Source of the DNA: Croceivirga lutea
GTDB lineage: Bacteria; Bacteroidota; Bacteroidia; Flavobacteriales; Flavobacteriaceae
Assembly: GCF_014235875.1 (NCBI RefSeq)
Contig: NZ_JACJUK010000003.1
Coordinates: 1 to 64,000 of the forward strand
DNA: 64,000 nt
Reading direction: 5' to 3'
Shown: one piece after another, positions 7,548 through 20,124 of the stretch
How positions within the stretch are numbered: position 1 is the stretch's first letter
Layout: every line of letters begins with the position of its first letter
Notes under the pieces: model-generated
Told to the model about the DNA's origin: nothing
What the model saw: the letters and a program-made list of their open reading frames with translations, nothing else
The model's database searches: none
Program-made: the position numbers and the translations under genes

Positions 7548-8750
7548 TTATGCTGCTTCAACCACCTTAGACGAATTAGTAGAAACTGTTGTTTGTTCAG
7601 AACTCGAACTTTTTTTACGATAGTGTACCGCAATTTGCAGCAACTGAATTCCAATTTTAGCAGAGTCTTTAAACGATAACTTTGAGCCATCTGCATGAAC
7701 CCAACGTTTTAGTGGTTGTTCACAAATAATTTCTAGAGCCTTTTTTCTACCGTAATGATTACTTATTCTTTTAAACATTTCAACATCAAACAACCATTTG
7801 GTTAAGAAGGGTTTTTCAAAGGCAACCTTAACAATATCCTTATCCATAACCTTTGCACCGCATTGGGTGTCATTAAATGGCATTCTTAGAATAGTACGAA
7901 TCATTAAATTAATAGTCTTACTAATAATTGCTCTGGCAGATTCTTTAGCAATTTCGGCTCCCATTCTTGCCATTCTAGAACCATTTACAATCTTATAATT
8001 AGAGTTACCTAATGTCTTAACCAAATCATCAAAATCTCTAAAATCTGTCGATAAATCTGCATCTAAAAACCCAATGTAATTATACTGTGGGTCTTTTGCC
8101 ATATGTAGCATACCTTGTCTAACAGCTTCAGCTTTACCTCCATTTTTTGCACAATCGTAAACAGTAATATGGTCTTCATTACCTTTTTGTATTTCTCGTA
8201 ATACTTCGAGAGTATTATCAGTAGAACCATCGTTTACAAAACATAAATTATACCCCAAATTTTCAAAAGAGAAGTCAAGAAAATCTTTTCCAGACAGTCT
8301 TTCAGCCTCATTATAACAAGGTATAACAACACCAACACAGTATTCTTGAATAACCTGACTAGCTTTTTTAGATTTTTTTACTGTAGTTTCTGGAGTTCCA
8401 ATAATACGTTTTACACGAGCAACGACTTCATTTAAACTTACTGGCTTTTTCATGTAATCATCAATATCAAGGTCAAAACCTTGTGTAATTACATTCTCAT
8501 CTGTATTACCAGACATCACCATAATGGGTATTCTTTCATTGCTAGAAGAGCGTATTTCTTGAACAACATCCAAACCAGAAATATCTGGCATGTTGATATC
8601 AACAATTACTAAGTTTGGTTGAAATTCTTTTACAAGCATTAATCCTTCTTTTCCGGATTCAGCTGTTTGAACTTGGTAACCAAGTTCTTGAAGTCTTTTT
8701 TCTAATGATAGCAATATTAATTGCTGGTCATCAATTGCTAGAATTTTCAT
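7548..8750 (-). CDS. Receiver domain fused to family 2 glycosyltransferase
   Basis: A 400-residue two-domain protein. Residues 1-120 are a complete response-regulator receiver: Asp7-Asp8, phospho-acceptor Asp51 (VIVDINMPD), Ser near 82 (MVMSGN) and Lys near 104 (YMKKPVS). After a basic linker, residues 135-380 form a GT2 glycosyltransferase of the dolichyl-phosphate-glucose-synthase/DPM1-like kind: VVIPCYNEAERL, FVNDGSTDNT, KNGGKAEAVRQG, the metal-binding FLDADLST and the acceptor-site region DTQCGAKVMDK. No membrane helix is seen, so it probably transfers sugar at the cytoplasmic face of the inner membrane. The fusion implies that phosphorylation directly sets glycosyltransferase activity. 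The phosphodonor is unknown, but a kinase/Hpt block lies 7 kb away. Confidence 0.92.
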   Translation of the reverse strand: MKILAIDDQQLILLSLEKRLQELGYQVQTAESGKEGLMLVKEFQPNLVIVDINMPDISGLDVVQEIRSSSNERIPIMVMSGNTDENVITQGFDLDIDDYMKKPVSLNEVVARVKRIIGTPETTVKKSKKASQVIQEYCVGVVIPCYNEAERLSGKDFLDFSFENLGYNLCFVNDGSTDNTLEVLREIQKGNEDHITVYDCAKNGGKAEAVRQGMLHMAKDPQYNYIGFLDADLSTDFRDFDDLVKTLGNSNYKIVNGSRMARMGAEIAKESARAIISKTINLMIRTILRMPFNDTQCGAKVMDKDIVKVAFEKPFLTKWLFDVEMFKRISNHYGRKKALEIICEQPLKRWVHADGSKLSFKDSAKIGIQLLQIAVHYRKKSSSSEQTTVSTNSSKVVEAA

Positions 8751-8869
8751 AGGTTATTTATGTATGTTGCTAAGATTTGGATTCAGCATACGGTTTTCAA
8801 AATTAAAAACGTAATTATTTTCCTACATATAACGTAATATCATTTTATATATTGCAAACAATCGAGCAA

Positions 8870-9826
8870 ATGAAAAAATATCTGATATACGCCCTTTTAT
8901 TACTTAGCTATTTTGGCAAATCTCAACAAGAGATGGCCTTAACTATTAGTTCTAAAAAACTTCAACAGCTTTCTAATCTAAAAGGTGTTAATTATTACCC
9001 AACCAATACCGCTTGGAACATGTTTGGCGAAAATTTTAATAGAGATGTAATTACTAATGACTTTCAATTAATACATTCTTTAAACATTAATACTATTAGA
9101 ATCTTTATCCCATATAAAGCTTCTATTGAAGATATAAATCAACTAATTGAGGTTTTAGATGAAGCTCATAAACATAACTTAGGAGCAATTGTAACACTTT
9201 TTGATTTTTATGGAACTTATCTAGACTCAGACCAAGAACAAAACAAAAGCTATGTTTCTACAATTGTTGGCGCATTAACTGGTCATAAAGCATTATTAGC
9301 TTGGGATATTAAAAATGAACCAGACCTGGACTTTACTAATCGAAGTAAAAGTCAAGTTTTAAAGTGGCTAAAAAACACCATTTGCCTTATTAAAAATATA
9401 GATTCAAAAACACCTATTACCATTGGGTGGGCAAAAGCTAAAAATGCGATTTATCTTAAAGATGAAGTTGATTTTATATGTTTCCATTTTTACGATGAGC
9501 CAACACTTTTAAAAAAAGAATATCAATTACTCCAAGAACAAACTAATAAAGTTATTGTGTTAGGTGAGTTCGGAAAATCTTCTCATCTAAGTTTTTGGAA
9601 GATGCTAAAAAACGGAGAAAAAGTTCAAGCAACATATCTTTCAGAAATAAAAGAGATTATAAAAACAAATAGCATTCCCTTTATGCTATGGACATTATAT
9701 GATTTTAACGAAGTTCCAATAAAAGTGGTTGGTAAAAAAAAGCGGTATCGTAAACAGCAACAAAAGTTTGGTATATATGATACTCATGGAAACAAAAAAA
9801 GGGCATACTATTCTATTTTTGAATAG
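8870..9826 (+). CDS. Secreted GH5-like glycoside hydrolase
   Basis: A 318-residue protein starting with a signal peptide (MKKYLIYALLLLSYFGKS). The mature part is a TIM-barrel glycosidase of the GH5/clan GH-A kind: NINTIRIFIPY early in the barrel, WDIKNEPD (acid/base Glu), FICFHFYDEP, and VLGEFG (nucleophile Glu). It probably cuts beta-linked polysaccharide in the periplasm or at the surface. It lies between two glycosyltransferase genes of opposite orientation, so trimming or releasing the locus's own polymer is the likely job. I chose ATG 8870 because the signal peptide starts there; a TTG six codons earlier is less likely. Its last codons overlap a terminator for the genes on the other strand. 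Confidence 0.82.
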   Translation: MKKYLIYALLLLSYFGKSQQEMALTISSKKLQQLSNLKGVNYYPTNTAWNMFGENFNRDVITNDFQLIHSLNINTIRIFIPYKASIEDINQLIEVLDEAHKHNLGAIVTLFDFYGTYLDSDQEQNKSYVSTIVGALTGHKALLAWDIKNEPDLDFTNRSKSQVLKWLKNTICLIKNIDSKTPITIGWAKAKNAIYLKDEVDFICFHFYDEPTLLKKEYQLLQEQTNKVIVLGEFGKSSHLSFWKMLKNGEKVQATYLSEIKEIIKTNSIPFMLWTLYDFNEVPIKVVGKKKRYRKQQQKFGIYDTHGNKKRAYYSIFE

Positions 9827-9854: not shown

Positions 9855-11090
9855 TTATTGGTGAACTAATATTTCTTTTATTTCTTCTTGTGATGTGGTA
9901 GAAACTTTCTTACCTCTTTTGCGTTGAATTTTTTCAAATAAATCTAGATACATATTAGTTATTCTAGACATTGGCCATGCTGTTGCCGCTTTGTAATTAG
10001 TTTTACCCAATTCTATTCTATACGCATCATTAATTATGATTTTTTCTATTGCATCAGCCAAAGAAGAAGCTTCACTTGGATTAAAAAACTCACCGGCATA
10101 ACCTTCTTCTCTTACCAAAATACCTAAATCACCTAAATCTGGTAATACAGCTGCCTTACCATAACTACCCGCTTGGTGTAAAACACCAGAACTACCTGTA
10201 GTAGAAGTATACGGAAAAACCGTTACAGCACTCTCTTCAAAAATGCGTTGAACATCTGCTTCTGGCACGTAGCCCGTAAATCTCAATTGAGATACATGCG
10301 CGTATTTTTTAGCAACCTCATCTAAATACCCTGGGGTATTAGGACTATCTGTACCTGCTATTACAATTTCAATATTTTCGTTGGTTCGGTTTCTAATTTG
10401 CTCAACCGCCTCAATCATAATTTCAACCTTTTTATAGGTTCCAAATTTTCCGAATGCCATTACCTGTTTTGGTCCGTTTGGCAACTTGTAATCTGGTTCT
10501 GGAGGCAATTCAAAAGAACCGTGTGGTATTAGCTCTATATTGTTCTTTTTATATTTACCCTTAAGTGTAGTAACATATTTACTGATAGTTACTGCCACGC
10601 TATCAGACGCTAACACAAAACGTGTTAAGGTGGTTCCTATAAAATTGAAGATACTTGCTAACAACTTGTTTGAAGCAAAACCAGCATCTTTTAAATCAAC
10701 AGTTTCCATTATGTTGTGTAGTAAAGAAACCGTTGGCACACCCATAGTTTTAGTTATAAAAGGCAACATTAAACCTAGTGCTGCAGGAACTTTTTTATCT
10801 CCGAATTTCATAAACTGTAGGTTATACAGTACTGCATCTGGCTTGGTTTGAGCTACCGCGTTTCTAATAGTTAAGATATTAGAATAGCTATTAAACTCCC
10901 AACACTCTTTTACGGTGATTTTACAACCGTCTCCTTCAAAATTTAAATCTTTTTCACCTTCGGTTTTATCGCACAACAAAACAATTTCATCAACTCTGTT
11001 TTGTACTCTAAAACTCTTTACCAAATAATACGCGTACTCTGTTAAGGTTACTTTACTTGGTGGATAAGCGGTTACTATTGCAATTTTCAT
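9855..11090 (-). CDS. Glycosyltransferase family 4 protein
   Basis: A 411-residue GT-B fold retaining glycosyltransferase. It starts MKIAIVTAYPPSKVTLTEYA, the usual N-terminal donor/acceptor loop, and has MAFGKFGTYKKVEIMIEA (start of the C-terminal domain), IVIAGTDSP and the nucleotide-sugar-binding segment SAVTVFPYTSTTGSSGVLHQAGSYG (cited by positions 290-316) in place of the classical EPFG motif. It transfers a sugar from a nucleotide donor to a growing polysaccharide in the cytoplasm. Sixteen extra codons upstream overlap the flippase gene and look non-coding, so I use ATG 11090. It follows the flippase by 10 bases, in one operon with the STAS-like gene. Confidence 0.88.
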   Translation of the reverse strand: MKIAIVTAYPPSKVTLTEYAYYLVKSFRVQNRVDEIVLLCDKTEGEKDLNFEGDGCKITVKECWEFNSYSNILTIRNAVAQTKPDAVLYNLQFMKFGDKKVPAALGLMLPFITKTMGVPTVSLLHNIMETVDLKDAGFASNKLLASIFNFIGTTLTRFVLASDSVAVTISKYVTTLKGKYKKNNIELIPHGSFELPPEPDYKLPNGPKQVMAFGKFGTYKKVEIMIEAVEQIRNRTNENIEIVIAGTDSPNTPGYLDEVAKKYAHVSQLRFTGYVPEADVQRIFEESAVTVFPYTSTTGSSGVLHQAGSYGKAAVLPDLGDLGILVREEGYAGEFFNPSEASSLADAIEKIIINDAYRIELGKTNYKAATAWPMSRITNMYLDLFEKIQRKRGKKVSTTSQEEIKEILVHQ

Positions 11091-11100
11091 AGTATAATTT

Positions 11101-12369
11101 TTATTGATTTGGGTTTTGGTTATCAGATAAGTATCCAAATACTTCTTTATTCATAAAGTATATAATTTGAACAGTAAGTAGAATAGCCATGGCTATTATT
11201 TGCATATGAATTACTGTATCTAAACTATCATGATAAAAAACAATTAATAGTATTTGAGACATTCCTAAAATGCCAGAAAGTATTACAGGAACGTATTGAT
11301 CTAAAGACAAAAAGTAATAGGCAAATATGTTTGAAAGGGCAAATAAAGAAGTAGCAACAGCATATTTCCATAACAAATGAGAAACTTCTAAATACTCACT
11401 ACCAAACATAATATTTACTACAAAATCTGGAAATAAATAACACCCCCCTGTGATTAATACTGCAAGTGCTCCTATGTAAGAAACATACTTAAATAACACT
11501 GGTGCAGTTGGCTTACCTTCTTTATGATTATTTACTACAGTAGGTAAAAGCAACATTACAAACATCCAAGCAGCAAAATACACCACTCTACCTATTAAAG
11601 CTAAAGAGGCATACAGTCCAGCTGGTTTTGCATCAAAAAAATGCTTTACTAATAAGATGTCACTATTATTTATGATTATTTGAGTAAGCTCGTAGCAGGC
11701 AGTTAGCACCATAAACTTTACAATTCGCTTTTGGTCAAAAGCATCCAGTTTAAAAGTGTTTTCAATTTTTATTGATTTTATTTCTGACGGATACAATCCA
11801 AAAAAGAAAGAAATCAAAATACCTATTGCGACCAACACTCCAGATTGTAACGGAACCACAAAAAGCAAAGCCATTGTTATAAGCAACCTACTCCACATTT
11901 CGGTTTGGTAGGTTAATGATAGCCTTTTGAACTCTTGCTTACCTTGAAAAATACCTCTGTTTAGACTCATGAAAAAGTAGAGTGGTATTCCACAGGCAAA
12001 AATCATGAACATAATACTGTTATTGGTGTGAAACAATTCTTTTAATTGACCAGAAAAAATCAACATAAGAACACCAACAGTAACTCCAAGTAGTATAGAA
12101 AGTTTTAAGGTATTATTCTTAAAGGCATTCCATTTATCACCAGAAAAAATAACGGCAAACTTAGCCGCAGTTAACTGAAAAGTCATTCCTAAAAAAGAAA
12201 GTACCAGTAATAAAGTAATGAGCAGGGCAGCTTCTGCAAAGGCTTCTGGACCTAAAATTCTACCTAACAGTAGGTTGTATAGGTAATTACCACCGTTTAC
12301 AACTATAACACTAAGCATAAATATTTGCTCAGCGCTAAGTTTGCGCTGTAGTTGTCTAATAGCTTCCAT
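11101..12369 (-). CDS. Polysaccharide flippase-like membrane protein (Wzx/MOP)
   Basis: A 422-residue integral membrane protein with about 12 hydrophobic helices, of the MOP flippase superfamily (Wzx, oligosaccharide flippases). The N-terminus runs FMLSVIVVNGGNYLYNLLLG, with the GxxxxxxxxLLGRxLG-type opening of these proteins. It would move lipid-linked sugar units across the inner membrane. It lies 3 bases after the STAS-like gene and 10 before the GT4 gene, so the three are one operon. No Wzy polymerase is recognisable nearby, which leaves the polymerisation route open. Confidence 0.85.
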   Translation of the reverse strand: MEAIRQLQRKLSAEQIFMLSVIVVNGGNYLYNLLLGRILGPEAFAEAALLITLLLVLSFLGMTFQLTAAKFAVIFSGDKWNAFKNNTLKLSILLGVTVGVLMLIFSGQLKELFHTNNSIMFMIFACGIPLYFFMSLNRGIFQGKQEFKRLSLTYQTEMWSRLLITMALLFVVPLQSGVLVAIGILISFFFGLYPSEIKSIKIENTFKLDAFDQKRIVKFMVLTACYELTQIIINNSDILLVKHFFDAKPAGLYASLALIGRVVYFAAWMFVMLLLPTVVNNHKEGKPTAPVLFKYVSYIGALAVLITGGCYLFPDFVVNIMFGSEYLEVSHLLWKYAVATSLFALSNIFAYYFLSLDQYVPVILSGILGMSQILLIVFYHDSLDTVIHMQIIAMAILLTVQIIYFMNKEVFGYLSDNQNPNQ

Positions 12370-12372
12370 AAG

Positions 12373-12693
12373 TTATTTTACCAATAGCTTTTGAGCTTCT
12401 GGTTGTTCAGATTTGGGGTTATATATGTATTCTAAAACGCGATTATAGCTAAAAGCTTGTTTTTTAACCTTATAAAGTTCTCTAGCAATCTCTCTAGAAA
12501 TACAATCAACTTTATTTAAATCAACTATAACCTTTGGTTTAGTTTCAAATAAATGAAGTAAATAACTTCTTAAGCTTTTAATGTTAGCATTGGTAAGATT
12601 ACCTTTTAATACAATAACGTTGTTACGTTCAGAAATGTGTAGGGCCATGTTGTTATGATTTGGGTTTATAGTTAATGATGCATTTGCATGCAT
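12373..12693 (-). CDS. STAS-like small protein
   Basis: A 106-residue protein with the alternating strand/helix pattern of STAS domains (anti-sigma-factor antagonists): NNVIVLKGNLTNANIKSLRSY, then PKVIVDLNKVDCISREIARE with the Ser in the position usually phosphorylated, then a helix. An internal ATG 15 codons in (12648) may be the real start, since homology begins there. STAS proteins work by partner binding, often with a serine kinase; none is seen in the window. As the first gene of the flippase/GT4 operon it is probably a regulator or scaffold for the membrane proteins. Assignment is from fold pattern only. Confidence 0.6.
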   Translation of the reverse strand: MHANASLTINPNHNNMALHISERNNVIVLKGNLTNANIKSLRSYLLHLFETKPKVIVDLNKVDCISREIARELYKVKKQAFSYNRVLEYIYNPKSEQPEAQKLLVK

Positions 12694-12851: not shown

Positions 12852-14939
12852 ATGAACCGAATTTTTACGCTAATTGCTTTACTATCCTTTTATATTCTAC
12901 AGGCACAAAGTGCTATGGATGAGGGTTTTAAGATGCTCGAAGCTGGTGAATTTAAAGAAGCCAAAGTGTTTTTTGAAAATTATTTAGCTCAAAATAAACC
13001 TAATAAAACAGCAAAACTTTGTTATGGTAGAGCTCTGGGTTTAAGTGGTGAACCTATTGCTGCTATCACATATTTTAAAAATCTTAAGCAAGAATTCCCT
13101 AAAGATTATGAAATAGAATCCAACTATGCAGAAGCATTTTTATGGGCTAAAAAATTCATAGAAGCAAAACCACATTACATAGAATTGGTAGCTGCTTATC
13201 CTGATAAATTTGGAGCAGTTTTAGGTTTGGCAAATACGCTTTCTAATCTGCAAGAATATTTAGAAGCTTTAAAATGGGTGAACAAAGCTATTGCGCTCGA
13301 ACCTGAAAATGAAGGTGCTAAAATTTCGCGTAAATATATTAAAATGGGGTATGCAAATGCATTTGTAAAAAAAGAAGAGTATAAAACTGCTGAAAACCTT
13401 TTGCTACAAATTTTTGAAGATTTTCCAGAGGATAAAAATGTACTCCAAAACTTGGCTAACAATTACTTAATGACCAAGGAATATGATAAACAAATCGAAG
13501 CCTACCAAAGAATAGCGACAAATTTTACAGATTCAATTACCGCGCTTAATGGTATTGCACTTGCGCATCATTTAAAAGGCAAAAGTAAAATTGCATTAGA
13601 AGTGGCAAGTAAGGCAAAGGCAAAAATTGACACACAACCTAATCATAATCTTAAGCCCGAAACCTACAATAGGTACATACAAGCGTTAATTTGGAATCAT
13701 AAATACACTCCAGCTAGAACAAAAATAGATAGCCTTTCGCAACATCATGCAAATGAGAATTGGTTACTTTCTTTAAAATCAATGTTAGGTATGTATACGG
13801 CTGATTTTAAAACAAGTATTTCTAATTATGATGCTATTCTAGAAAATGACAGTACTTCATTCGATGGTAATTTAGGAAAAGCTAATGCACTATTAGCTTC
13901 AGATAAACTAATACCTGCGTATGAAAACGCTTTTCAAACCATGCGGATTTTTGGTCAACAAAGAGATGTGATAGGTTTTATTGAAAAACTAAATATTCAG
14001 AACTCACCCAATGCAGAAGAATGGGTACAATACACCTTTGATAATGGAGACAATGTAGCTTTCGCGTCAACTACAACTGTTAACGTACCATTTTCTCCCA
14101 GTATTAAATCAACAGTTTCTTATCAATATAGAACATCAGAAAATGAAGTAACAGCTAACCAGGCAAGTTCACATGCTTTAAATGGTTCCTTTACTTTTAA
14201 AATTAGACCACAGGTTTATTTAAAAACCGAAGCTGGCTTTTACGCGGCTCAATTTTTAGATACCACGTATGTTAACCCAGTTTTTGATGTAAAACTTCAA
14301 ACCAAACCTTTAAAGCTTAACAATTTAGAACTCAATTATAAGCGAGAAATGCAAGCATTTAATGCCGAGTTGATTAAACGAGAAATAGTAATGAACCATT
14401 ATGGGCTAACATACAATTTGGGTACTAATTTTAATTTAGGATGGTACACACAGCTTATGTATACCTCACAGTCAGATAATAATATGCGTAACTTATTATT
14501 TACCTCTTTGTATTACAATTTAACTAGAAAACCAGCCTTAAAAGGCGGTCTTAACTTTTCTTACATAACCTTTGCAGACCAGGTACCCACTATTTATTTT
14601 AGTCCGTCTGTGTATAGAAATGTGGAATTATTCTTTGATTTAAGAGGTAATTTTTCAGAGAAATCAAGAGGTTATGTTAGTGCCGCAGGAGGTTTGCAAA
14701 AAGTTGAAAATGATGACGAAACAGTAATCTATAGAGCTGAAGGTGGGCTAACACATGAATTTTCAAAAAGACTTAAGCTAGATATTTACGGAAAATATAG
14801 TAACATAGCCTCTGCTATTGGTGCAGGATTTCAGTTTGCTGAAATAGGTATGAAGTTAAATTGGACATTAACTTCTAAGCCATTATTCTTTAAGAAGAAA
14901 TTTAAGGATGAAATGAGTTTATTAGAAACCTACGAATAA
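12852..14939 (+). CDS. TPR protein with YaiO-type outer-membrane beta-barrel
   Basis: A 695-residue protein: signal peptide (to about residue 19, ending LQAQS), a TPR superhelix from about 20 to 390 (repeats such as YLEALKWVNKAIALEPENEG and YKTAENLLLQIFEDFPEDKN), and a C-terminal YaiO-like beta-barrel from about 405 to 680 with alternating aromatic strands. TPR plus barrel is the architecture of polysaccharide export channels such as BcsC, AlgK/AlgE and PgaA. It diverges from the STAS-flippase-GT4 operon, and I infer that it exports the polymer these make. The last residues (LLETYE) are not a typical barrel signal. Confidence 0.85.
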   Translation: MNRIFTLIALLSFYILQAQSAMDEGFKMLEAGEFKEAKVFFENYLAQNKPNKTAKLCYGRALGLSGEPIAAITYFKNLKQEFPKDYEIESNYAEAFLWAKKFIEAKPHYIELVAAYPDKFGAVLGLANTLSNLQEYLEALKWVNKAIALEPENEGAKISRKYIKMGYANAFVKKEEYKTAENLLLQIFEDFPEDKNVLQNLANNYLMTKEYDKQIEAYQRIATNFTDSITALNGIALAHHLKGKSKIALEVASKAKAKIDTQPNHNLKPETYNRYIQALIWNHKYTPARTKIDSLSQHHANENWLLSLKSMLGMYTADFKTSISNYDAILENDSTSFDGNLGKANALLASDKLIPAYENAFQTMRIFGQQRDVIGFIEKLNIQNSPNAEEWVQYTFDNGDNVAFASTTTVNVPFSPSIKSTVSYQYRTSENEVTANQASSHALNGSFTFKIRPQVYLKTEAGFYAAQFLDTTYVNPVFDVKLQTKPLKLNNLELNYKREMQAFNAELIKREIVMNHYGLTYNLGTNFNLGWYTQLMYTSQSDNNMRNLLFTSLYYNLTRKPALKGGLNFSYITFADQVPTIYFSPSVYRNVELFFDLRGNFSEKSRGYVSAAGGLQKVENDDETVIYRAEGGLTHEFSKRLKLDIYGKYSNIASAIGAGFQFAEIGMKLNWTLTSKPLFFKKKFKDEMSLLETYE

Positions 14940-15138: not shown

Positions 15139-15870
15139 TTATAAAAGATTAATACGCTGCATTAATGCTGGCCTATTGCTTCTACTAATAGGAATTACCT
15201 TTTTACCAATTAACACACTGTTATCTTGAATATCGATAATCTTATTAAAGTTGATGATATAGCTTCTATGAATTTGCATAAAAGTTGGTTCTGGTAACCT
15301 GGCAGCAATCTTCTTTAAACTAGTATGAACATGGTAACGTTCTGTGGTAGTATAAACATTTACATAATCACCTTCTGCCTCAACATATTCTATCTCTTTA
15401 AACTGTAAATTAATTAGTCTTCTATCTATATTAATATACAGGCTATTTCTAACCTGCTCCATACTGTCTGTAGAAGTAGTAGAGCTATCTTGAGAAGGAC
15501 TTTCCATTTCATCTAAGATAAACTGCTTACGAGCTCTTTCAACGGCTTTTTCAAAGCGTTCTTTAGTTAATGGTTTTACAAGGTAGTCTACGATGTTTTC
15601 GTATTCGTAAGATTTAGAAGCAAAGTCTTTATCAGAGGTAAACAGAATTACCTTTTGGGTATTATCAAGTGTTTTAAGTAAATCTACACCAGAGAACATA
15701 TCCATATGTAGGTCTAGAAATATTAAATCTACTTTGTTATCATTTAGGTATTTTAAAGCTTGAATTCCGTTTTCAAGCATAGCCTTAACTTCAATTTGAG
15801 GTTGGTCTTGGCAAAACTTTTCCAAAACCACTCTTGATGCTAATTCATCATCTACAATTATACAAGTCAT
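15139..15870 (-). CDS. LytTR-family response regulator
   Basis: A 243-residue regulator. The receiver (1-120) has Asp7-Asp8, phospho-acceptor Asp53 (LIFLDLHMD), Thr near 78 (ILFTSD) and Lys (YLVKPLTK). The C-terminal LytTR DNA-binding domain covers about 140-243 (IEYVEAEGDYVNVYTT, FMQIHRSYIINFNKI). LytTR proteins bind direct repeats upstream of targets, often surface or biofilm genes. It starts 2 bases after the Hpt stop, the last gene of the signalling block. It is the probable output of the Hpt protein; its binding site is not identified. Confidence 0.92.
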   Translation of the reverse strand: MTCIIVDDELASRVVLEKFCQDQPQIEVKAMLENGIQALKYLNDNKVDLIFLDLHMDMFSGVDLLKTLDNTQKVILFTSDKDFASKSYEYENIVDYLVKPLTKERFEKAVERARKQFILDEMESPSQDSSTTSTDSMEQVRNSLYINIDRRLINLQFKEIEYVEAEGDYVNVYTTTERYHVHTSLKKIAARLPEPTFMQIHRSYIINFNKIIDIQDNSVLIGKKVIPISRSNRPALMQRINLL

Positions 15871-15872
15871 GG

Positions 15873-16190
15873 TTATAAAGATTTGATAAATTCGTCTACT
15901 TGGTCTAATATTTTTACAAATTCAGCATGATGTCTATCTCGCTGAACTTTAAGTTCTTCTTCATATTTAACGGCTAAACCGTAAGCTTCTTGCATTCCGC
16001 ACACATTTAGTTTGTGTTTTAACTTGTGTACAATGCTTGCCGTACTAGTAAAATCTTGTGCAGATTGCACTTTTTTATAATGAGCAATCTCGTCTGGATA
16101 TTCTGTTTTTAGAATAGCTATAAACTTAGTTCTAAAGGCATCATCACCTCCGGCAACTGAATCTATATAGTTGGTATTAGGCATCTCCAT
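15873..16190 (-). CDS. Hpt phosphotransfer protein
   Basis: About 105 residues of helical bundle with the Hpt signature SIVHKLKHKLNVCG (phospho-His at about 55); the usual HxLKG is here HKLKH. Such proteins carry phosphate from a kinase receiver to a response regulator. The frame is open further upstream within the HATPase gene, but the start is better placed at ATG 16190 (or 16184, giving an 8-base ATG...TAA overlap as at parDE). It is between a stand-alone HATPase and a LytTR regulator, so a split kinase relay is plausible. Confidence 0.8.
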   Translation of the reverse strand: MEMPNTNYIDSVAGGDDAFRTKFIAILKTEYPDEIAHYKKVQSAQDFTSTASIVHKLKHKLNVCGMQEAYGLAVKYEEELKVQRDRHHAEFVKILDQVDEFIKSL

Positions 16191-16653
16191 TTTGTACATT
16201 TTTAAGGGTGAAAAAAACGGTAGTTCCTTTTTTAACTCTTGAGCTAAGCCAAATATCTCCTTCATAAAAGTTGATAATTCGCTTAACCAAAGCTAGACCT
16301 AAACCGTTAGATGAAACGTCTGTATTTAGTTCTTCGAACATGTTGAAGATTTCTTTTTGTTTTGTAGCAGAAATACCACAACCATTATCACTAATGCTAA
16401 ATAATAGTTCGCCTTCTTTTTGTTTAAAATCTATTTCTACAATACCCATAGCCACATTTTCTAGAGCTAAAACTGCATTGTTGAGAAGATTCGTAAACAA
16501 AGAATTCATTTTATTTCTGTCTATTAATAAAGTGGGTAACTCTGACCTTATTTTAATTTTAATGTTATGGGGGAAATACAATTCTTCAATTATTCCTTTA
16601 ACCAATACATTTAGGTTAATTACCTCCATTGTCTCATCTACATTACTCGTCAT
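16177..16653 (-). CDS. Stand-alone histidine-kinase ATPase domain
   Basis: A 158-residue HATPase_c domain without a His-containing dimerisation domain. N-box is NLLNNAVLAL, G1 is DNGCGIS and G2 is GLGLALV; the C-terminus FYEGDIWLSSRVKKGTT is typical. It resembles the corresponding part of the PAS kinase just upstream, so it may be a duplicated and trimmed copy. The frame is open about 20 codons beyond the chosen ATG but reaches a stop before any H-box. It may act on the Hpt protein whose gene overlaps its end, as in split CheA-like systems, or be a fossil. I lean to a functional gene because all ATP motifs are intact. Confidence 0.8.
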   Translation of the reverse strand: MTSNVDETMEVINLNVLVKGIIEELYFPHNIKIKIRSELPTLLIDRNKMNSLFTNLLNNAVLALENVAMGIVEIDFKQKEGELLFSISDNGCGISATKQKEIFNMFEELNTDVSSNGLGLALVKRIINFYEGDIWLSSRVKKGTTVFFTLKNVQNGDA

Positions 16654-16733
16654 TATTTTCTTAAATATTCTGTTATTAGTTTGGTTGATAATTTTTGTTT
16701 GGATTTAGTTAGTTTTAATTCATTTATTGGGTT

Positions 16734-19109
16734 TTAAATTGCATCTATATCTTTAATAATGGTAAAGTAAAATGTGGTGCCTACCCCAATTTCACTTTCT
16801 AACCATACTTTTCCTCTATATCTTTCAATTATCTTTTTTACAATTGATAAGCCAATACCGGTAGATCTTTCTCTATTACCAATAGATTGAAATATTTGAA
16901 ATATTTTTTGATGGTATTCTTTTGGTATACCTACACCATTATCTTTAACACTAAACTGCCAATGCGTATTTGAATCTACACACCCAACTTCAACTAAACC
17001 ATCTGGCTTATCTATATGAACAACAGCATTACTTAAAAAGTTTTGAAATAACTGATGCATCATGGTTTTATCTGCTTTTATTATCGGCAGAGGGTGTGCA
17101 GTTTTTACTTTTACATTATCAGGACAATAAATAATTTCAGAAATCTCTTTTACAAGAGAATTCATATCTATTTTGACTTCTTCTAATTTATTTCTGTTGA
17201 CCATAGAATACTTGAGTATACCTCCAATGAGTTTATCCATACCCTCAATTTTTTCTTGAATCATTTTTAAATTATAAACACCATTGTCATCTAACTTGTC
17301 TTTATAATCTGTAAGCATCCAATCGGCCAATGCGCTAACAGAACGCAACGGTGATTTTAAATCGTGAGAAACTATGTGTGCGTATTCTTGTAAGCCTTGG
17401 TTACTTTGTTCTAACTCTCTTAAAAGCTTTTCTTTCTGCACCTCTAATGCATGCTGTTCAGTTACATCTAAATAAACGCCAATAGATCCAGCTACCTTAC
17501 CTAAATCATTATACGTTGGTGCACCGCTGATTAACCAATATTTTTTAGCTCCTTTTTGTGTGGAAACTTTTATCTGATAAGAATCAGATTCACCTTTAAA
17601 TCTAGATTCTAATTGTTGATTTATGAGGTTAGTGTTTTCTTGGTCTACTTTAACGATATCAAAAACCCTTTCTCCAATAATATTTTCTTCTTTTTGATCA
17701 ACCATATCACAAAAACGATTGTTAACAAACAAAACGTTTCTATTGCGATCAATTTCTACCAACCCCAAGTTCATGTTGGCAATAATATTAGAATACTTTT
17801 CTTGTTGTTGTTCTAAGTTTCTACGATAGTGTTTTTGTAAAGTAATGTCTGTATATACCCATAAATGACCTGTTAGCTCATCTTCTGTAAATAATGGAAT
17901 ATAGTCTCTAGAAAAATACCTACCATCTTTTAATTCAAGCTCATCTGCAATGGCTACTTCTTTCTTATGAACGCGTTGTTCTATAAGCTTTAAAAAGGTA
18001 TCAGAATCAACATGTTTTTCTTTTAAAGAATCAATTAATTCAATACTCTTTTTTCCTTTTAAGTCTGAAGCTTTTTCCTCTAAATCAAAGAAATCTGTAA
18101 ATCTTTTATTAGACATTACCAACCTTCTATTGGCATCTTCTAAAAGAATACCAGATTGCAGGTTCCCAATCATGGTTGACATTCTAGATTCAGAAGCAGC
18201 GAGTTTATCGTTAGCTACTTTTTCACTAGTAATATCATCAACCATAACAACGTTGTATTCTACCTCGTTGTTATGGTTATAAACATTGGTTATTGAAGTT
18301 TTACCAAATAACTGCCCACCATTTTTTTTATGAAAAATTCTGGTAATGGTAATATGGTCAGAGTTAGGCTTGGCATCCATTTCTAACATTGCTTGGTATT
18401 GAGAAATATCAGCAATTGTAGAGACGTCTTCTAGAGAGAATTTTTTAAGTTCATATTCTTCGTAACCAAGCATTTGACAAAAAGCATCGTTAGCTTTAGC
18501 TATTTTGCCTTTTACGATAAGCATAATACCAAGCGAAGAATTTTCAACAATTAAGTCTAATTGTTTTTTTTGTGATTCTACTAGACGTTTTACCTCCATT
18601 TCGGAAGTTATATCTCTAATAACACCTTGAGCAGCTATTGGCGTACCATTTTTATTGTAAATTAAACTAGCGTTGATGTTTACATACTTTTCACCGTATT
18701 TACGGGTAACAATTTTAGCATTGTAATTTTTAATGATACCTACATGAAGTAATCTTGTAAAAGATTCATTGGTATATTCTAGGTATTCTGGATGAACTAT
18801 TTGTGATAGATATACGTCTTCCTCCTCGTTATCATACCCTAAAAACTCTTTGGCACTAGTATTCATACTTATGACCTTAGTAGTTAAATCCATAACTACA
18901 TATGGGTCTATAAGATTTACAAATGCACCCTCTATATTTTTACCCTCTTTAGAAAGTAAAGATTCTAAACGGCCGTTAGCTTCCTTTAAATGCAATAACG
19001 CATCATACAACTCCTTTGACTTATCTTCAAGAAGTTTTTCGGCCGCTTTACGAGCCATACGTTCACGTTGAAGTGTACGTTCAAATATATTTTGGGTCTT
19101 ACTATCCAA
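16734..19109 (-). CDS. Multi-PAS sensor histidine kinase, H-NOX partner
   Basis: A 791-residue soluble kinase without membrane helices. It begins with a coiled coil (RERMARKAAEKLLEDKSKEL, residues 14-33) typical of kinases paired with H-NOX. Four PAS/PAC units follow (about 60-170, 180-300, 305-420, 430-550), then HisKA with phospho-His at 582 (YAHIVSHDLKSPL) and HATPase_c (DNGVGI, GIGLSIV). Its start overlaps the H-NOX stop by 8 bases, indicating coupled translation and, by analogy with HnoK in Shewanella and Vibrio, control by NO-bound H-NOX. No receiver is fused. Its target is probably one of the receivers nearby. Confidence 0.92.
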   Translation of the reverse strand: MDSKTQNIFERTLQRERMARKAAEKLLEDKSKELYDALLHLKEANGRLESLLSKEGKNIEGAFVNLIDPYVVMDLTTKVISMNTSAKEFLGYDNEEEDVYLSQIVHPEYLEYTNESFTRLLHVGIIKNYNAKIVTRKYGEKYVNINASLIYNKNGTPIAAQGVIRDITSEMEVKRLVESQKKQLDLIVENSSLGIMLIVKGKIAKANDAFCQMLGYEEYELKKFSLEDVSTIADISQYQAMLEMDAKPNSDHITITRIFHKKNGGQLFGKTSITNVYNHNNEVEYNVVMVDDITSEKVANDKLAASESRMSTMIGNLQSGILLEDANRRLVMSNKRFTDFFDLEEKASDLKGKKSIELIDSLKEKHVDSDTFLKLIEQRVHKKEVAIADELELKDGRYFSRDYIPLFTEDELTGHLWVYTDITLQKHYRRNLEQQQEKYSNIIANMNLGLVEIDRNRNVLFVNNRFCDMVDQKEENIIGERVFDIVKVDQENTNLINQQLESRFKGESDSYQIKVSTQKGAKKYWLISGAPTYNDLGKVAGSIGVYLDVTEQHALEVQKEKLLRELEQSNQGLQEYAHIVSHDLKSPLRSVSALADWMLTDYKDKLDDNGVYNLKMIQEKIEGMDKLIGGILKYSMVNRNKLEEVKIDMNSLVKEISEIIYCPDNVKVKTAHPLPIIKADKTMMHQLFQNFLSNAVVHIDKPDGLVEVGCVDSNTHWQFSVKDNGVGIPKEYHQKIFQIFQSIGNRERSTGIGLSIVKKIIERYRGKVWLESEIGVGTTFYFTIIKDIDAI

Positions 19110-19644
19110 CTTGTTTCAACAAAAATTCAACCTCAGTACCGTCTTCTTTAAGTAATTTATAATCTACATTAACCTCATTACCAAAGTGCTCAAATGTTTT
19201 TTCCATTAAGCCTTTAGCAAGCATATACAAGCCCCTAGAGGAAGCGTAAATCATTCTAATTTTATCTGAATCTTGTTCTAAGATTTTAAACGATGGTAGC
19301 TCTGCATCTGGGTATAACTTTCTTACATGAACATGAATGTGATCCTCAATAGAGGCAACCAACGCTATTGGTGATTTGTAGCTTGAGACAACTTCTGGAT
19401 GTGTTGCTAACAAACTATCAAAAAGATAATGGCCAAATTTGTGTATTAATTCTGGGGCAGGAACATTAATTTCTTTACTTAGGTTGGTGATAAGCTCAAC
19501 CATTTCATTAAAATCATAAGTACCTACTGCGGTGTAAATTCCATTAGAAGGTAAATCAGAGTTGGTAATAATAGTATCAACGGTTTCTAATCCAAAGGTC
19601 TTTTCAACCATTTGTAGAAACTCATCAAAAACAATTCCTTTCAT
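19102..19644 (-). CDS. hnoX: H-NOX heme nitric-oxide sensor
   Basis: A 180-residue heme-binding sensor. The sequence has the proximal His (H104, in EDHIHVHVRKLYPDAELPSF) and the heme-propionate motif YxSxR (Y133, S135, R137). The position equivalent to the O2-stabilising Tyr of Thermoanaerobacter H-NOX (five after the Arg) is Leu142, so the protein should bind NO and exclude O2; this is inference from family structures. Length is normal. The gene is immediately upstream of and overlapping its cognate kinase. It is the input of the proposed relay. The gene symbol follows common usage, not a proven ortholog. Confidence 0.93.
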   Translation of the reverse strand: MKGIVFDEFLQMVEKTFGLETVDTIITNSDLPSNGIYTAVGTYDFNEMVELITNLSKEINVPAPELIHKFGHYLFDSLLATHPEVVSSYKSPIALVASIEDHIHVHVRKLYPDAELPSFKILEQDSDKIRMIYASSRGLYMLAKGLMEKTFEHFGNEVNVDYKLLKEDGTEVEFLLKQVG

Positions 19645-19722
19645 AATACGGGCACATTATATAGTAAATGTAGGAATGGCCCTAACCGGAATAAAAATTT
19701 TGTTGTGAAATGAAGATTTTTG

Positions 19723-20124
19723 TTAGCCTTTGAACAATTCGCTAACCTCCCAATAATCAAAAACCTTTTTTATACGGTTTTCGTAGTCTTCGTACTTTAG
19801 AGGTTTTATGATGTATCCTGCAATACCTATCTCATAACATTTTAACAAATCAGCTCTATTTTCTGATGTTGTTAAAATGATGGTTGGTAAGAATTTTAAT
19901 CTATCATCATTTTTTAAAATTTGTAGAAATTCTATGCCACTCATTCTCGGCATATTTAAATCTAAAAATAGGATATCTGGCAATTCACCGCCACCATTTA
20001 GCACTTCTAAAGCTTCTTCGCCATTTTTAGCTTCTATGATTTGATGTTTTGTTTGCATACCAGAAACTGCTCTATGCATTTTCATGGTTTCAATCATATC
20101 ATCTTCTATTAAAAGTACTTTCAT
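19723..20124 (-). CDS. Single-domain response regulator
   Basis: A 133-residue receiver with no output domain: Asp8-Asp9, phospho-acceptor Asp55 (ILFLDLNMPR), Thr near 84 (ILTTSENR) and Lys (YIIKPLKYED). Stand-alone receivers of this Rcp1/CheY-like type often shuttle phosphate. It lies 78 bases upstream of the H-NOX gene on the same strand, so it is probably in the same operon and is a good candidate partner of the PAS kinase and the Hpt. Confidence 0.9.
   Translation of the reverse strand: MKVLLIEDDMIETMKMHRAVSGMQTKHQIIEAKNGEEALEVLNGGGELPDILFLDLNMPRMSGIEFLQILKNDDRLKFLPTIILTTSENRADLLKCYEIGIAGYIIKPLKYEDYENRIKKVFDYWEVSELFKG

Follow-up and report, generated by a model that had tools for sequence, protein, structure and literature searches.

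A candidate split phosphorelay responding to nitric oxide and linked to extracellular-polysaccharide genes in Croceivirga lutea and its relatives

What might a nitric oxide (NO) sensor of the H-NOX family control in a bacterium without GGDEF or EAL enzymes? The question is raised by a run of six genes in Croceivirga lutea (Flavobacteriaceae; genome of 3.45 Mb in 19 contigs), found in the 64,000-nucleotide stretch of contig NZ_JACJUK010000003.1 that was analysed here (the window), in which H-NOX stands among the parts of a phosphorelay and close to polysaccharide genes. An earlier interpretation made from the letters of this DNA (hereafter the sequence-only reading) had suggested a pathway from NO to surface polysaccharide, possibly specific to Bacteroidota. 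Our own reading, to which we give a probability of about 0.6, is that these genes encode a split phosphorelay which responds to NO and is tied to an extracellular-polysaccharide cluster, the genome having no GGDEF or EAL enzymes.

H-NOX signalling is known mainly from Proteobacteria. It is described as running largely through cyclic di-GMP (c-di-GMP) or quorum sensing (PMC8738867), and the sequence-only reading had taken c-di-GMP to be the route in Vibrio and Shewanella; as reported in the same source this holds for the relays of Shewanella oneidensis and Vibrio cholerae, but as a general statement it is too narrow, since the HnoX-HahK relay of Vibrio fischeri is reported to reach SypG and the polysaccharide genes of the syp locus by way of SypF and LuxU (PMC12369376). 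The lack of GGDEF and EAL genes seen earlier in the stretch itself extends to the whole genome of the window strain, where neither gave a match and 8 and 6 of 14 control genomes, respectively, were positive (HD-GYP was not searched); a c-di-GMP route through these enzymes was rejected on this ground.

With one exception taken up below, the relay operon has the gene content, domains and positions that had been assigned to it, and all six open reading frames (ORFs) lie on the minus strand between 15139 and 20124. The first gene encodes a stand-alone receiver (REC; 19723..20124, Pfam Response_reg 3.2e-20) and is followed by the gene for the H-NOX haem sensor (19102..19644), which matches Pfam HNOB with an E-value of 1.7e-37 and 129 bits, above the curated cut-off of 25.5. 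Next come a histidine kinase (16734..19109) with four PAS stretches (residues 80-164, 194-294, 316-427 and 437-549) and HisKA and HATPase domains by Pfam (HisKA at 26.5 bits, slightly below its cut-off of 26.9), whose TTG start lies over the H-NOX stop in the eight-base overlap reported earlier (19102-19109), and an ORF with a HATPase domain alone (16177..16653; HATPase profile 6.7e-21). The last two genes encode an Hpt phosphotransfer protein (15873..16190), recognised by a weak Pfam match and a conserved histidine, and a LytTR response regulator (15139..15870; REC 1.3e-16, LytTR 1.4e-22). As called, the Hpt frame spans 15873-16265; its true start is probably the ATG at 16190, giving 105 aa as in the orthologues, so that the long overlap with the HATPase ORF would be an artefact of start choice. 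Pfam finds no receiver domain in the kinase, and REC is encoded by its own gene. Identity to the Croceivirga thetidis counterparts is 83% for REC, 78% for H-NOX, 71% for the kinase and 68% each for Hpt and LytTR.

The sequence supports an H-NOX pocket of the NO type, in keeping with the NO sensing that had been expected of it. Proximal His104 and the YxSxR motif (Y133, S135, R137) are in place, and Leu142 aligns with Tt Tyr140, presumably the O2-stabilising tyrosine; each of these features had been named in the sequence-only reading. Among 106 aligned family members His104 is kept in 105 and Arg137 in 100, Pro117, Tyr133 and Ser135 are kept in all 106, and the distal position held by Leu142 is taken by Phe in 67 members and by Leu in 37, with Met and Tyr once each. 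The closest solved relatives are 6bde/6bdd, of which 6BDD is described as the H-NOX of Kordia algicida (PMC7356049).

A gene-order search confined to Bacteroidota genomes finds the neighbourhood conserved within the Flavobacteriaceae. Our family sample held 299 Flavobacteriaceae genomes, 105 of them with H-NOX (109 matches); the window and the stretches around 106 H-NOX matches make 107 loci, 106 of which were parsed. Two fragmentary H-NOX matches (G534:C80 and G498:C2; G, C and L numbers are our handles for genomes, contigs and loci) and L221, in which the ORF filter missed H-NOX, were left out. The conserved order is REC, H-NOX, kinase, optionally FIST and a second kinase, then Hpt and LytTR. 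REC lies directly upstream of H-NOX in 100 of the 106 family loci and a kinase directly downstream in 105; within eight genes of H-NOX, Hpt is found in 96 and LytTR in 92, and REC, kinase, Hpt and LytTR occur together in 89, which is well above chance. The adjoining kinase varies in length from 267 to 1156 aa across loci, mostly about 400-830.

Where the genes were found, the residues needed for phosphotransfer are kept throughout: Asp55, the acceptor of REC, along with Thr86 and Lys107, in 100 of 100 orthologues, the kinase histidine in 103 of 103, LytTR Asp53 in 92 of 92 and, although the Hpt profile scores below its cut-off in the window (19.8 against 24.6 bits), the Hpt histidine in 96 of 96. 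Because REC and Hpt are separate genes, this arrangement suggests a His-Asp-His-Asp chain laid out on four proteins. Outside the family the order is looser: among 12 stretches from 11 genomes (L131-L142), L134 has the full relay order and L138 the order H-NOX, kinase, LytTR, several carry H-NOX without relay neighbours, and in L133 and L140 no H-NOX is labelled. In L143 and L144 the operon neighbours are 36-62% identical to those of the window and the intervening H-NOX merely 21-25%, as if H-NOX had been swapped in place.

The exception mentioned above is the HATPase-only ORF, which had been counted as a separate component of the relay. Alignment, synteny and the congeners mark it instead as the C-terminal remnant of a second, FIST-linked histidine kinase. 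In all ten other genus genomes examined the first kinase is followed by FIST and a full-length kinase 2 of about 350 aa, after which Hpt comes next in nine (no Hpt is labelled in L119). The FIST protein of C. thetidis has 375 aa (PF08495/PF10442), and a genome search found no FIST gene in the window strain, the one genome without it among the 11 of the genus examined. Aligned with residues 200-346 of kinase 2 from C. thetidis the ORF shows 55% identity, as against 39% with the first kinase of its own genome, and its origin as a duplicated first-kinase domain was rejected on these figures. Because of this difference and of the synteny with the congeners, we consider that a deletion probably took FIST and the front of kinase 2 from the window genome. 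FIST is present in 56 of the 106 family loci, and FIST and kinase 2 are gained or lost jointly in all but three of them (the window, L177 and L245). Against the NCBIfam NosP model the C. thetidis FIST scores 56.8 bits where the cut-off is 450, over model positions 26-352 of 368, and on this score 'NosP-like' denotes a resemblance, not family membership. It is quite improbable that the HATPase-only ORF works on its own, for example as an RsbW-like kinase acting on a STAS protein or as a decoy ATPase domain: its frame is open, it retains the HATPase match given above and a STAS-like gene lies close by, but it is nearest to the C-terminus of kinase 2, in whose syntenic place it stands, and among the 106 loci the window alone has an ORF of <260 aa with just a HATPase domain beside H-NOX.

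The sequence-only reading had pointed to the polysaccharide genes as nearby targets, and in the relatives this link reaches beyond the window. A proposed polysaccharide exporter, called present at an E-value of at most 1e-60, occurs in 74 of the 299 family genomes, 67 of which also have H-NOX; it lies <30 kb from H-NOX in 61 of these 67, with a median distance of 8.9 kb among the 62 in which the two share a contig. A receiver fused to a glycosyltransferase of family 2 (REC-GT2) occurs in 60 of the 299 genomes, 54 of them with H-NOX, and in 49 of the 54 it is within 30 kb. In a phylum sample of 395 Bacteroidota genomes REC-GT2 was found in 12, and all 12 are among the 27 with H-NOX.

The second line of evidence is a DNA box shared by promoters in the relatives. 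The word TAGACGAATGG and variants of it were spotted by eye in the intergenic regions of exporter and flippase genes. On both strands of 109 stretches, half-site pairs at a spacing of 21 bp number 176, against 6 to 28 at the other spacings from 12 to 44. With a box called at a dyad score of 18 or more out of 22, the promoters of the relay operon (those before REC), which were not used for word discovery, carry it in 76 of 98 cases, where 12 other spacings give 8.0 of 98 on average; 2 of 100 REC promoters had been dropped for having <60 bp of non-coding DNA. In the direction of the gene, the consensus approximates two copies of CCATTCRTC(G/T)ACA; over 75 sites, the edge facing REC has a median distance of 81 bp to the start codon of that gene. 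The box CCATTCGTC has eight of the nine bases of the AlgR core CCGTTCGTC, as given in PMC4064291. Exporter promoters carry the box in 36 of 56 cases, a partly circular count given that the word was first seen there, and it is further found in STAS (31/49), flippase (11/24), GT4 (23/35), large membrane protein (9/22) and GT2 (10/30) promoters, before 75 of 445 unlabelled genes of the stretches (against a mean of 9.7), and in 0 of 5 of LytTR's own promoters. For a count across whole genomes, 37 were hand-chosen from the 67 with H-NOX and exporter, and five (G000, the window genome, with G401, G414, G637 and G586) were set aside as special; in the remaining 32, 72 of 98 matches to a strict pattern lie <30 kb from H-NOX, in 30 of the 32 genomes, an interval of about 1.5% of a 4-Mb genome. 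A reversed control pattern gave 14 matches in all 37 genomes, against 111 for the real pattern.

The box also follows the regulator. It precedes the relay operon in 72 of 87 loci with LytTR in view and in 4 of 14 without (p 9e-5; L080 was dropped as the same genome as L124); when the hand-added L087, L088 and L097 are taken out of the LytTR-absent set the latter count is 4 of 11 (p 0.002), and without three short contigs it is 1 of 11 (p 2e-6). In L124, L176 and L182 the H-NOX locus lacks both LytTR and boxes, and LytTR lies elsewhere, beside a REC gene preceded by a box. Because the box mostly follows LytTR when LytTR has moved or been lost, there is good comparative evidence that the relatives' LytTR reads the tandem box. 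The relocated LytTR loci are L246, L247 and L248; a box stands at a second flippase gene in L246, where it precedes the gene and GT4 follows, and in L247, where it falls inside the ORF as called. In L249 and L251, on contigs other than that of H-NOX, boxes of the LytTR type stand before ORFs of 75-89 aa.

Co-location of relay and polysaccharide genes by chance was rejected on the linkage and operator counts. One might also suppose that the neighbourhood reflects inheritance only, the NO relay and the polysaccharide cluster sharing a place without any functional link; the genomes are indeed related and their gene order is partly inherited, but the operator is common to the promoters of both gene sets, is concentrated near H-NOX genome-wide, and is found as well at a REC-GT2 gene on another contig (G607, score 21) and, more weakly, at a distant exporter gene (G522, score 18), so that this explanation is very improbable. 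Taken with linkage, the shared operator supports a polysaccharide link in the relatives that is statistical and regulatory, beyond adjacency.

In the window, the exporter gene (12852..14939, plus strand) encodes a TPR and outer-membrane protein identified through TPR matches; its residues 506-596 weakly match PgaA, an export porin (28.7 bits, where the cut-off is 366.65), and a search of solved structures returned TPR or TPR-containing chains only. The same search gave no match for a 1052-aa membrane protein. On the minus strand follow genes for a STAS-like small protein (12373..12693; STAS 0.00039, 20.6 bits against a cut-off of 22.6), whose like recur at the corresponding place in many relatives, a Wzx-like flippase (11101..12369; Polysacc_synt 3.8e-08) and a GT4 glycosyltransferase (9855..11138, the start perhaps at 11090; Glyco_trans_1_4 2.3e-17). 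A glycoside-hydrolase-like TIM barrel (8852..9826, plus strand; Glyco_hydro_2_C 3.5e-08) is encoded by a gene shorter than in most of the relatives listed (roughly 505 aa). NCBIfam gave no match for the flippase, STAS or H-NOX proteins and none above cut-off for GT4. The REC-GT2 gene (7548..8750, minus strand) combines Response_reg (2e-26 at residues 3-114) with Glycos_transf_2 (4.5e-21 at 141-289). Its acceptor Asp51 is kept in 19 of 19 sequences, as is the first Asp of the DxD motif, the second being kept in 17 of 19, and the GT2 part is of the polyprenyl-phosphate-sugar kind, resembling the solved undecaprenyl-phosphate aminoarabinose transferase 9hwj, sll0501 (5eke) and dolichol-phosphate mannose synthase (5mlz). 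Because the acceptor is so conserved and the gene lies within the target cluster, direct control of this enzyme by the relay is plausible.

A different, 'type B' set stands in 10 of the 106 loci, marked by an ORF of 370-440 aa with a receiver-like part. In the one example run through Pfam, L116 of a congener, the set comprises STAS, GT2, REC, a sugar transferase, a flippase, an efflux protein of the outer membrane and an ORF that matches nothing; the sugar transferase is L116:13935-15164, and Bac_transf is shown for L116 alone. The N-terminal receiver-like part of the marker ORFs, which have 395-428 aa, was rejected as a phospho-target, its acceptor position by eye being mostly not Asp, which marks it as a pseudo-receiver. 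Within three genes after LytTR, 34 of the 106 loci have an unlabelled ORF of 780-900 aa, often preceded by a box; one of these, L126:7260-9848, encodes a DUF6923 protein carrying a type IX sorting tail. One more STAS-Hpt pair of genes separates LytTR from the exporter in C. radicis (L118:9226-9859) and in strain ASW18X (L122:12364-13014). Elsewhere in the window, positions 1-717 hold a transposase-like piece and a small antitoxin-like ORF, and at 34124-38451 genes resembling those of Y-family polymerases and of DnaE stand in tandem, which probably make up a mutagenesis cassette; all of these were named by eye.

We propose the following model. NO would bind the haem that H-NOX is predicted to carry and alter the adjoining kinase, and phosphate would then pass from the kinase to the stand-alone REC, from there to Hpt, and on to LytTR. 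In the relatives, phosphorylated LytTR would bind the tandem boxes, which stand roughly 80 bp ahead of the start codon, and would thereby govern both the operon that encodes it and the genes for exporter, flippase and glycosyltransferases; a further phosphate transfer, from Hpt to the receiver domain of REC-GT2, may add control at the level of the enzyme. In its fuller form within the family the system would have a putative second NO sensor, the NosP-like FIST protein, which together with a separate kinase would feed the same Hpt, a branch of which the window genome would have kept only the ATPase end of the kinase. Of this model, the computation establishes which genes are there, which residues are kept, the linkage, the operator and its tie to LytTR, and the lack of GGDEF and EAL genes; haem and NO binding, each phosphate transfer and its order, the sign of the response and activity in this strain we infer. 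The most far-reaching version of the model, in which two unrelated haem sensors (H-NOX and the NosP-like FIST), each with its kinase, converge in Flavobacteriaceae on a fully split, c-di-GMP-independent His-Asp-His-Asp relay that switches a LytTR regulon dedicated to the cluster through an AlgR-like tandem box and also phosphorylates REC-GT2 directly at its receiver domain, is tentative, and taken whole we would sooner doubt it than accept it.

Several observations weigh against the proposal of an NO-responsive relay attached to this cluster. The box is found in 1 of 69 promoters of other signalling genes and 0 of 6 glycoside-hydrolase promoters; 15 of the 87 LytTR-bearing loci score <18 before REC, and four loci without visible LytTR keep the box (L183, L187 and L212, which are short contigs, and L177, a broken operon). 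Fisher p values for the association of H-NOX with polysaccharide genes (4e-31, 3e-23 and 7e-16) ignore kinship and so are overstated. No exporter was found in 38 of the 105 H-NOX genomes and no H-NOX in 7 of the 74 exporter genomes, several of these seven being incomplete assemblies. In G544 (L256) a kinase of at least 1437 aa, cut by the end of the stretch, stands without H-NOX before Hpt, LytTR and exporter, and the stretch has no box scoring 18; since another kinase can occupy this place, the input module would be swappable and NO need not be the input. The locus favours a general polysaccharide switch with interchangeable sensors, in which Hpt-LytTR and the cluster belong together, NO is one of several inputs, and PAS ligands or redox may dominate. 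The varying size of the H-NOX-adjacent kinase and the exporter genomes without H-NOX also speak for such a switch, but H-NOX is present in the other 67 exporter genomes and in every REC-GT2 genome of the phylum sample, and we regard it as unlikely, though worth bearing in mind.

The remaining adverse evidence comes from the window strain itself, where the window shows no recognisable box: ahead of REC the top score of a dyad with 21-bp spacing is 15 of 22, a value reached by 38 of 200 shuffles, and ahead of the exporter it is 14 of 22, reached by 146 of 200. Genome-wide there is one strict match, not near H-NOX. The DNA-binding domain of the window LytTR reads LINL for LIKL, a Lys present in all 8 of the relatives compared, and EAEG for EAKG, a Lys present in 6 of these 8. 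This leaves two readings, a shift in the specificity of LytTR or a decay of control. The congeners are intermediate, C. thetidis and C. radicis scoring 17 before REC, and C. radicis 19 before the exporter. Because the FIST branch is lost and the LytTR operator is not recognisable, the window is a poor example of the pathway, and it looks like a reduced copy.

It is possible, if somewhat short of an even chance, that the relay is decaying in this genome, with FIST and most of kinase 2 deleted, the operators gone and the cluster no longer controlled. Besides the unrecognised operator, the shortened glycoside-hydrolase gene and the loss of FIST in this genus member alone among those examined, the HATPase remnant is less conserved than the first-kinase ATPase domain (55% against 75%, each to its C. 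thetidis counterpart), and genes that many relatives carry, those for Inv and the large membrane protein, were not found in the window. However, what remains of the relay keeps its catalytic and phospho-acceptor residues, its five proteins are 68-83% identical to those of C. thetidis, and LytTR could have changed specificity instead.

A phosphorelay leading from NO to polysaccharide is not new in kind, the precedent being the HnoX-HahK-Syp system of V. fischeri introduced above. As described for that organism, H-NOX adjoins its kinase, the relay leads to a regulator of a polysaccharide locus and NO is the input; here, unlike there, the regulator is of the LytTR family, REC and Hpt are separate, a REC-GT2 is present, and relay and polysaccharide genes are co-located. 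SypG is a regulator of the sigma-54 type; the regulator here is REC-LytTR instead. The HqsK-LuxU-LuxO relay has LuxO as its regulator. In Vibrio harveyi and Vibrio parahaemolyticus this relay is reported to act on quorum sensing, passing under H-NOX control from kinase to Hpt to regulator (PMC8738867), an order that our model shares; a separate Hpt is also encoded here in the great majority of loci, with its place in the relay presumed, but the receiver is a gene of its own and not fused to the kinase, and the regulator is LytTR, not LuxO. The H-NOX-kinase-HnoB relays of S. oneidensis and V. cholerae, which are reported to act on c-di-GMP, likewise have H-NOX adjoining a kinase and response regulators downstream (PMC8738867); they differ in that the window genome has neither an EAL nor a GGDEF gene. 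With NosP (FIST) sensors the relatives' FIST shares a resemblance far below the model's cut-off, and the window genome has none. Like AlgR, the regulator is of the LytTR family and is associated with polysaccharide promoters and a similar core; unlike AlgR, it comes with a tandem repeat of 21-bp period and a phosphorelay operon with H-NOX. Fusions of a receiver to a glycosyltransferase are on record in Methanobacteria, for example MTH_548 (PMC5847659), which shares this architecture with REC-GT2; its glycosyltransferase domain is BcsA-like and archaeal, and the passage describing it gives no H-NOX context.

What is new, as far as our literature search reaches, is an operon that has two sensor modules, a LytTR output whose tandem box is found mainly around the cluster, and the partnership with REC-GT2. 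Searches combining H-NOX with Bacteroidetes, Flavobacteri, LytTR and Bacteroidota found no description of the operon in titles or the beginnings of abstracts, with thin coverage of subscription journals, so that it may still be in print.

H-NOX occurs in about a third of the sampled Flavobacteriaceae, and how NO acts without GGDEF or EAL enzymes (one genome tested) was an open question for which a circuit with a named operator, regulator and targets is now proposed. REC-GT2 is, in addition, a candidate for a glycosyltransferase controlled directly by phosphorylation. Marine genera account for many of the relatives named. If the proposal is true, control of the matrix by NO would bear on how these marine relatives settle on surfaces and leave them.

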